This document shows, piece by piece, positions 21,899 to 24,370 of a stretch of 33,673 nucleotides of DNA. Where the stretch lies: positions 1 through 33,673 of the forward strand of contig JAAZMX010000028.1 of the NCBI GenBank assembly GCA_012798565.1, written 5' to 3'. Position 1 is the stretch's first letter. Each line of letters starts with the position of its first letter. Below the pieces are notes generated by a model that worked only from the letters and a program-made list of their open reading frames with translations, was not told the origin of the DNA and did no database searches. A program made the position numbers and the translations under genes. This DNA comes from Candidatus Kuenenbacteria bacterium. GTDB lineage: Bacteria > Patescibacteriota > Patescibacteriia > UBA2196 > GWA2-42-15.

Positions 21899-23758
21899 AT
21901 GATCAAAGAGAAAATCAGCGGGGTGATAAATAACACAATTTATAAATGGCTACTCTTTGTAGCTATTTTTTTAATAGTTGTCGTAGTGGTATTTGGATCA
22001 ATAGAATTATATAGTTTTTATTTTAATAATAGGATTTATCCGGGCGTGGCGGTCGGTGAGTTGGGGTTGGGGGGTAAAAATAAAGAACAGGCGCGTGCGC
22101 TGATTTTGGCCAAGAGCGATGAGCTGGTTCATGAAGGGATAAGTTTTTATTATGGCCAAGAGAAAATGATATTGACACCGATTAGCTACAGCGAGGATGG
22201 AAACAGCCAGGTGCTTTGGACTTATGATTTGGATAAAATGGTTGATGAGGCGTATTTGGTGGGGCGGGCAGGAAAGGGATTGGCTGGCTGGCAAGGAAAA
22301 ATTCAGGCACTGTTTGGCCGGGTGATTGTAGAGGCAAGATATCAATTCAAAAAGGAGGAAACAACTGCGACAGTAAAAGAAAAATTTGGGCAATTTGAAG
22401 ATCCGGGCGAGGAGGCAAGATTGACTTGGGAGGGAAATACGCCAGTTGGCACAAGAGAAAAAACGGGAAAAGTTTTTGATTATGAACGAGCGATGGGCTG
22501 GGTAGAGGAAAATTTGCAGCGCCTGGAAAACCGACCGATAGAGTTGGCATTAATAGAGATTCAACCAAAGGTGACTCAGGCAGAAGTGGAGGGACTTTTC
22601 CCCAAAGCCAGGGAGGTTCGAAGTTTGGCGCCAGTGACCATCAAATTTATTGAGGAAGAAGAAACTAATAAAAAAAGCTGGACAATTAAAGAACAAGAGT
22701 GGAGTGAATGGCTAAAAGTGAAAGATAACGGCCAAGGGGAGGCCTATCTTGGGGTGGACGAAGAAAAAGCGAGAGACTGGCTGAAAGAGATAGCTTTGGC
22801 GGTGGATCAGCCGGTCAAAGACGCCCGTTTTGTGATGCAAGATGGGCGGGTGAGTGAGTTTCAATCAGCTCAGGATGGGCGGGTGGTGGATATTGAAGAG
22901 TCAATTAAAAAAATTGAAGAAGTGATTCTGAGAGAGGGGCAAAGAGAGACAGAACTGGTGATGATGACAGAAAAAACAAAATTGAATAATGAAAGCGTGA
23001 ATGAATTGGGAATCAGGGAATTGGTGGGGCAAGGGGAATCCAATTTTGCCGGGTCATCGAAGAGCAGGATCCATAATATTGGAGTGGGAGCAGCCGCCCT
23101 GAACGGTCTTTTGATCAAACCCGGCGAAGAGTTTTCTATTAATAACGCGCTTGGAACGATAGATGCTAGCACTGGTTATAAACCAGAGATGGTGATCAAG
23201 GGTGATAAAACAATTCCAGAATATGGCGGGGGCTTGTGTCAGGTGGGGACGACGTTGTTCCGGCTGGCGATCAATACCGGCTTACCGATTACGGAAAGAA
23301 GAAATCATTCTTATCGCGTGAGTTATTATGAACCAGCCGGGACAGATGCGACGATTTATGGTCCGTGGCCGGACTTGAAATTTATCAATGACACGGGAAA
23401 TTATTTATTATTACAGACACGAATAGAAGGGACAAAAGCTTATTTTGATTTTTGGGGGACGAGCGATGGCCGAGAGGTGGCGACGACGACACCCACGATT
23501 TATAATATTGTGCCGGCCGGGGGAACAAAGATGATAGAAACAGAGGATTTAAAACCGGGGGAAAAGAAGTGCACGGAGAGGGCGCATAATGGAGCTGACG
23601 CTTATTTTAAAAGGACAATTAGCTGGCCAGAAGGGACGGGGAGAGAAAAAATAGAAGAGACTTTCCGTTCACACTATGTGCCTTGGCAGGCAGTGTGTCT
23701 CGTAGGCAAAGAACCGAGTGAGACGGCGACGAGTACGGTAGAAGTAATCAGCAATTAG
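21899..23758 (+). CDS. VanW family protein with peptidoglycan-binding-like N-terminal region
   Basis: N-terminal TM; IHNIGVGAAALNGLLIKPGEEFSINNALG...YGGGLCQVGTTLFRLAINTGLPITERRNHSYRVSYY is the VanW core. Confidence 0.94.
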   Translation: MIKEKISGVINNTIYKWLLFVAIFLIVVVVVFGSIELYSFYFNNRIYPGVAVGELGLGGKNKEQARALILAKSDELVHEGISFYYGQEKMILTPISYSEDGNSQVLWTYDLDKMVDEAYLVGRAGKGLAGWQGKIQALFGRVIVEARYQFKKEETTATVKEKFGQFEDPGEEARLTWEGNTPVGTREKTGKVFDYERAMGWVEENLQRLENRPIELALIEIQPKVTQAEVEGLFPKAREVRSLAPVTIKFIEEEETNKKSWTIKEQEWSEWLKVKDNGQGEAYLGVDEEKARDWLKEIALAVDQPVKDARFVMQDGRVSEFQSAQDGRVVDIEESIKKIEEVILREGQRETELVMMTEKTKLNNESVNELGIRELVGQGESNFAGSSKSRIHNIGVGAAALNGLLIKPGEEFSINNALGTIDASTGYKPEMVIKGDKTIPEYGGGLCQVGTTLFRLAINTGLPITERRNHSYRVSYYEPAGTDATIYGPWPDLKFINDTGNYLLLQTRIEGTKAYFDFWGTSDGREVATTTPTIYNIVPAGGTKMIETEDLKPGEKKCTERAHNGADAYFKRTISWPEGTGREKIEETFRSHYVPWQAVCLVGKEPSETATSTVEVISN

Positions 23759-23883: not shown

Positions 23884-24108
23884 TTAGAAATTATTCATTA
23901 ATCCTGTTTTTTTTACTTTGCTGTTAGTTGCCAATAAATAAATAATTTCCATTAAACCCAAGGAATTTAAAATTAATATAATTATATACCAAACCTTATT
24001 GCCGCGTTTGGCTGCGCGCCAAAGAGCTAAGCCTTTCCAAACCAAACTCCAGACAAGAACCAAAAGCAATAATGGAGTATTATTAAAAATTTCTGGTAGT
24101 TGATTCAT
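23884..24108 (-). CDS. DUF5652-like small membrane protein
   Basis: LLLLVLVWSLVWKGLALWRAAKRGNKVWYIIILILNSLGLMEIIYLL. Confidence 0.8.
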   Translation of the reverse strand: MNQLPEIFNNTPLLLLVLVWSLVWKGLALWRAAKRGNKVWYIIILILNSLGLMEIIYLLATNSKVKKTGLMNNF

Positions 24109-24173
24109 AAAATAAAAATTAATTGATTAATATCTATTTTAATTTTAGCAAAAGATCAGTTTTTTTTCAAATT

Positions 24174-24336
24174 AAAACCCCGTCTTTTAGACGGGGCAAG
24201 AAAAATCGCTAATTACTCCAAGAGAAGAAAATCCTTATAAGGAGAATCCGAGTCGAAACCAGGATTATCCTTAAAAGAGATCCCCATGCTCGTCGTCTCT
24301 TGGAGAAATTAAAGATAGGATTAGTTTTTAAGCTTC
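24174..24336 (-). ncRNA. Candidate structured small RNA of unknown family
   Basis: Intergenic; minus-strand -35 TTGACA / 17 bp / -10 TATGAT upstream, 10-bp perfect closing stem CTCCAAGAGA/TCTCTTGGAG, ends in CCCCGTCTAAAAGACGGGGTTTT hairpin; no convincing ORF. Confidence 0.55.
24178..24196 (-). terminator. Terminator-like hairpin of candidate small RNA
   Basis: 8-bp GC-rich stem, 3-nt loop, followed by TTTTAATTT on the minus strand. Confidence 0.7.
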
Positions 24337-24341
24337 CAGCC

Positions 24342-24370
24342 ATCATATCATAAGAGCGGAAGCTTGTCAA
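24342..24370 (-). promoter_or_regulatory. Sigma70-type promoter for candidate small RNA
   Basis: Minus strand TTGACA (24370-24365), 17-bp spacer, TATGAT (24347-24342). Confidence 0.75.

Follow-up and report, generated by a model that had tools for sequence, protein, structure and literature searches.

Which RNA, if any, is made from the minus strand of positions 24174 to 24370, and what could it do? The first-pass annotation, made from the letters of this DNA alone, had suggested a novel small RNA transcribed from its own promoter to its own terminator. The window, that is, the whole stretch of 33,673 nucleotides analysed here, was compared with related genomes, and the features of the locus are as follows.

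24342-24370, minus strand: sigma-70-type promoter, TTGACA-17-TATGAT, with TG before the -10 element and 11 of 12 consensus matches
24173-24335, minus strand: inferred transcript, about 160 nt
24315-24206, minus strand: rod-shaped hairpin, core of about 110 nt
24296-24315, minus strand: closing stem, 5' strand, UCUUUAAUU-U-CUCCAAGAGA (helix 1, supported by covariation)
24286-24295, minus strand: 5' bulge of 10 nt, CGACGAGCAU in the window, conserved and unpaired
24282-24285, minus strand: GGGG, in G-C and G-U pairs with UUUUC
24232-24281, minus strand: apical arm with terminal loop (covarying helices 3 and 4 and the inner helix 2)
24249-24262, minus strand: distal motif C-U-GG...CU-C-G, a mismatch followed by a G-U wobble and a G-C pair
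24226-24231, minus strand: UUUUC and a single bulged U, opposite the 10-nt bulge
24206-24225, minus strand: closing stem, 3' strand, UCUCUUGGAG-U-AAUUAGCGA (supported by covariation and the fold of the window)
24177-24197, minus strand: intrinsic terminator hairpin of nine pairs, with a run of UUUU to 24174
23887-24108, minus strand: gene for a small DUF5652 membrane protein, directly downstream of the RNA and before the VanW gene
21899-23758, plus strand: VanW gene (Pfam VanW, 3.7e-41), a convergent neighbour separate from the RNA

The promoter had been read as TTGACA-17-TATGAT on the minus strand, and the terminator as a GC hairpin with a U-tract; both readings are confirmed at the positions given above. 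The start of the transcript was set 7 nt after the -10 element, and both ends are inferred from the promoter and terminator only. The absence of stem or promoter conservation in relatives, together with the lack of a transcript, had been named as what would refute the proposal. Among the 143 relatives with 100 nt of upstream sequence, TTGACA is exact in 110, and the promoter matches at least 10 of 12 positions in 88 (62%), against 2.6% of shuffled sequences. A free-standing gene with a housekeeping promoter and a terminator is one criterion for a 6S RNA, and it is met. The region 24340-24174 folds with -57.8 kcal/mol, compared with -39.2 +/- 4.3 kcal/mol for shuffled sequences (z = -4.3; none of 200 as good). 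According to energy alone, the 110-nt rod ranks only tenth among 3102 segments tested within the 33,673-nt sequence. Thus, the argument rests on conservation and not on energy.

BLAST searches detected the RNA in relatives within the same genus, family and order. Of 287 genomes sampled from the class, 196 are matched by R1, a covariance model of seven sequences (the window and six relatives), and most of them have one copy. A phylum sample of 382 genomes lists 34 members of the class, and the better model R2 matches 30 of these. In a pattern scan, the named genomes among the matches listed are Falkowbacteria, Uhrbacteria, Buchananbacteria, Komeilibacteria and Kerfeldbacteria. As these are the named records with the RNA, we read the class as ABY1. 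The alignment from which R2 was derived (A5) had been selected by an exact motif, and conservation was therefore measured on A6, which contains 73 distinct sequences drawn from model matches with no motif requirement. The model that selected A6 had nevertheless been trained on the motif set. The first-pass annotation had asked for a covariation analysis in relatives. In A6, 39 of 44 pairs show compensatory changes, 89% of the cells pair, and the stem is conserved. The covariation score is 0.703, compared with 0.215 for shuffled alignments and at most 0.171 with slid partners. G-U cells (461) are more frequent than A-C cells (103), indicating that this strand folds and acts as RNA.

The 10-bp stem CTCCAAGAGA/TCTCTTGGAG, noticed earlier as a perfect long-range pairing, is exact at 24305-24296 / 24225-24216 of the minus strand and covaries across ABY1. 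The closing stem as a whole has about 20 pairs; its sequence is free and its pairing covaries, with compensatory changes at 18 of the 19 pairs of helix 1 in the 73 sequences. The bulge is exactly 10 nt long in 71 of 73 sequences. It reads CGACAAGCAU in 62 of 73 and takes the form found in the window in six. Its pairwise identity is 97%, against 30-49% in the stems, and its unpaired probability is 0.75-0.97. Beside the bulge, one G-C and two purine-U pairs, mostly G-U, are formed against UUUC, and the G-U wobble at the second pair is kept in 67 of 73 sequences. The unpaired U of the 3' side (U150 of A6) is invariant (73/73), and UUUC is nearly so. The apical arm carries a conserved AGG/CCU block, and the distal GG/CU is present in 72-73 of the 73 sequences. 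The spacing from the bulge to this GG is 23-27 nt in all 73, including two sequences in which the distal part is 38-41 nt instead of 6-16. Such a fixed distance, kept whatever the size of the loop beyond, suggests that the RNA docks on one large partner. As for the nested pairings proposed earlier, AAUCC/GGAUU lies in the apical arm and stands, whereas CGAG/CUCG and the self-pairing of CCUUAUAAGG fall outside the covarying structure; CGAG sits in the unpaired bulge, and its pairing with CUCG is not conserved. The rod architecture of closing stem, then 5' central bulge, then apical arm is a further criterion for a 6S RNA, and covariation supports it here.

The possibility that the locus is only a DNA-level inverted repeat or a terminator, with no functional RNA, has some support: a U-run directly follows the closing stem in 66 of 146 relatives, and the gene usually lies ahead of a convergent gene. 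This explanation fits neither the excess of G-U over A-C cells, nor the conservation of the bulge on one strand only with the promoter on the same strand, nor the fixed internal motifs, and we consider it extremely improbable. A coding function was also rejected. No convincing reading frame had been seen in the first pass, and the one frame noted here, 24 codons from an AUG in the bulge to UAA, meets a stop at varied codons in relatives and is thus not conserved.

The RNA could not be assigned to a known family by eye, and an Rfam search had been advised. No Rfam family matched the window at the gathering score. At permissive thresholds, the window, the relatives' loci and the loci of other classes gave scattered chance-level matches, none consistently repeated across loci, and neither ARAGORN nor Rfam gave a tmRNA or tRNA match. 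A tRNA-like match in one genome (G038; loci L008 and L012) was a chance match of the apical strand to tRNA-like repeats, and in G000, G001 and G004, where each genome gave two matches, the antisense strand of the rod accounts for the second. Taking stem covariation, promoter conservation and the absence of an Rfam family together, the proposal of a novel small RNA is supported, and that the small RNA at this locus is real is near certain. The computation shows a class-wide structured RNA family with conserved transcription signals that is absent from Rfam 15. The rod is a trans-acting RNA that has its own promoter and terminator, and nearly all ABY1 bacteria have kept it.

The RNA gene usually has clpP or ruvB on one side and a convergent VanW gene on the other. 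Among 30 loci, 18 have a VanW homologue downstream, which is convergent in 16; clpP is upstream in 10 of the 30, and ruvB is upstream in some ABY1. In the window, a divergent M18 aminopeptidase gene lies upstream of the RNA. The M18 gene had been suggested as the landmark for finding homologous regions, but this link is local, and most relatives share VanW instead, which is also present in the window. The DUF5652 gene has its own promoter-like site at 24170-24142.

Several individual copies were also observed. Two tandem copies about 100 nt apart are present at L025, L028, L033, L056, L081, L100, L121 and L052, in genomes that are some of family f35 and Buchananbacteria records; they recall the paired 6S-1 and 6S-2 RNAs of Bacillus. 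Three copies are altered: the bulge of L185 has no CGA, most of the inner closing stem is missing from L210, and L010 keeps the apical motif and has lost the bulge. A record titled Lysobacteraceae (L083, JAACEG010000018.1) contains an ABY1-type copy with the score and span of that in the ABY1 genome G148, and its assembly is probably mislabelled or contaminated.

Related rods were found in two other classes. In a small sister class, R2 and a further model, R3, detected the RNA in five of eight genomes (weakest E = 0.001). The bulge of these copies is shrunk to about 4 nt with the same flanks as in the ABY1 RNA, and their neighbours are VanW or ruvB. Among 387 genomes of a third, large class, R3 found six weak matches (E = 5e-4 to 0.04), and these E-values alone mean nothing. 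All six loci adjoin a convergent gene for a pilB-type ATPase, and four adjoin ruvB. These rods are 139-170 nt long, compared with 110 nt for the ABY1 core and about 160 nt for the inferred transcript of the window (no transcript ends are known). The GG/CU motif lies at the same distance in 6/6. Five of the six have hairpins on both sides of the central loop, and G328 has only the 3' hairpin; the 3' hairpin of these rods is located where 6S RNA has the open 3' side of its bubble. The third-class rods are probable homologues of the ABY1 RNA, an inference drawn from synteny and from architecture and motif, not from E-values.

6S RNA restrains RNA polymerase by imitating an open promoter. It is a rod with a closing stem, a large 5' central bulge and an apical arm with a -35-like region, to which the B. 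subtilis type adds a 3' hairpin; the bulge is copied into a product RNA of which the first 11 nt are conserved, and minimal versions remain functional (PMC8414754, PMC8876501). Known product RNAs have GG at positions 4/5 or 5/6 (PMC8414754), and B. subtilis 6S-1 RNA forms a central bubble collapse helix (PMC8876501). The Rfam 6S model (RF00013) gave no match at E <= 10 in the window region, the loci of 18 relatives and L208, none at E <= 1 in nine loci from the sister class and the third class, and none in the 18 genomes of the ABY1 group. The last result leaves the usual place of 6S RNA vacant in these genomes. An open 3' bubble side with a -10-like element is absent in ABY1, in which only one unpaired U and the G-U-paired UUUC are found. 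The bulge complement AUGCUUGUCGUG has no GG at the positions expected of a product RNA, although the product start site is not known. The bulge CAAG can re-pair with CUUG of the 3' strand, with three or four of the four pairs available in all 73 sequences. As both segments lie in nearly invariant columns, this complementarity is not covariation evidence and is only suggestive.

Earlier, a 6S-like RNA had been named as one possibility, and 6S RNA is indeed the closest known architecture. We regard a divergent 6S-like RNA that binds RNA polymerase as the best reading, at about even confidence and from architecture only, with no binding data. It is favoured by the frame, the conserved bulge, the fixed two-point spacing, the third-class rods and the vacant place of 6S RNA. 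The RNA is 6S-like in its frame; it is not called a member of RF00013 because there is no Rfam 6S match, hardly any 3' bubble and no product GG. For the binding of RNA polymerase itself, we put the chance at about one half. The partner, the promoter mimicry and the release mechanism are all inferred. In this reading, the housekeeping RNA polymerase holoenzyme would take up the rod in its promoter channel. The 10-nt bulge and the weak G-U pairs would stand in for the melted -10 region, with the distal GG/CU motif roughly at the place of a -35 element. Polymerase would be held back when nutrients are short. Release would follow when the bulge is copied into a short product RNA complementary to CACGACAAGCAU, after which the bulge CAAG may re-pair with CUUG.

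A polymerase is not the only partner that the rod could serve. The RNA may be a housekeeping RNA of unknown kind, such as an RNA that is ribosome-bound or sequesters a protein; its invariant bulge would then be bound by some other conserved protein or RNP, and the rod would be only a scaffold. A bulge 97% identical between stems of 30-49% identity is what a protein recognition site would be expected to show, no Rfam family matches, and the RNA occurs beside an apparent loss of the whole SRP system. This explanation remains possible, short of probable; it would leave three observations to be explained separately, namely the two-point spacing, the occurrence of 6S-like rods at this locus in another class, and the lack of another 6S candidate. 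In a narrower form, about as possible, the invariant bulge of the RNA in ABY1 and relatives would dock with some core machine of the cell that is not RNA polymerase, in a lineage apparently without SRP. A base-pairing regulator would use the bulge as a seed for mRNAs or rRNA, and an invariant 10-nt single strand exposed between stable helices would suit it. Against E. coli 16S, 23S and 5S rRNA and the 23S rRNA of the window, however, the bulge paired no better than shuffled seeds (the organism's own 16S rRNA is not in the assembly), and a seed leaves the invariant distal motif and the U-strand unexplained, so that we consider this role unlikely.

SRP RNA in disguise was considered with the whole genomes of G000 and 17 relatives and 14 control genomes. 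The small SRP RNA of Rfam is missing in these 18, although it is found in 11 of the 14 controls, and this speaks for the idea. The Ffh M domain was found in none of the 18 and in all 14 controls, SRP54-type GTPases are essentially absent from the 18, and the SRP core motif was found in none of them with three mismatches allowed. The ABY1 RNA has neither an Rfam match to RF00169 nor a GGAAGCAGC-type core, and no Ffh partner is found. As motif, M domain and GTPases are all missing, this identity is rejected as scarcely credible, unless a strongly altered Ffh was missed by Pfam. According to these genome searches, the SRP system seems to be absent from ABY1. If it is truly absent, ABY1 bacteria insert membrane proteins without SRP.

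The literature searched gave no paper linking 6S RNA or small RNAs with CPR/Patescibacteria, and the standard model detected no 6S RNA in these Patescibacteria. With the ABY1 RNA, which combines overwhelming covariation and a 6S-like frame with the lack of an Rfam entry, the existence of 6S regulation can be tested in one of the largest uncultured bacterial branches. If polymerase is bound via the fixed 10-nt bulge, the RNA shows how little of the 6S bubble suffices; if not, it is a new housekeeping RNA. In either case it deserves its own Rfam family, which the covariance models built here define.

Among known systems, SRP RNA (RF00169) is a rod-like hairpin whose 5' strand carries an asymmetric bulge. 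The ABY1 RNA shares this outline, but it has no SRP core motif, and Ffh and FtsY are apparently missing in the host group. The Ro-bound Y RNA has an end-to-end stem with a conserved bulge, and the ABY1 RNA is similar in both; the two are not known to have a motif in common. Ms1 RNA of Actinobacteria is a lineage-specific 6S-like RNA of about 300 nt with two extra terminal hairpins, binds the core polymerase, and was found via structure and synteny, not sequence similarity (PMC9130861). Ms1 sets a precedent for a lineage-specific 6S-like RNA, although the ABY1 RNA differs from it in length and structure. The ABY1 RNA differs from 6S RNA in that it does not match the 6S model, its core is only about 110 nt compared with 160-200 nt, its bubble has almost no 3' side, its bulge complement has no GG at the expected product-RNA positions, and the invariance of its bulge exceeds what a template would seem to require. 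It resembles 6S RNA (RF00013; E. coli ssrS, B. subtilis bsrA/bsrB) in the rod, closing stem, 5' central bulge and apical arm, in a free-standing, usually single-copy gene with a sigma-70 promoter, and in a conserved bulge sequence and a fixed distal element. The third-class rods resemble it further in the hairpins of the central loop, and the possible collapse helix between the ABY1 bulge and the 3' strand resembles that of B. subtilis 6S-1 RNA.
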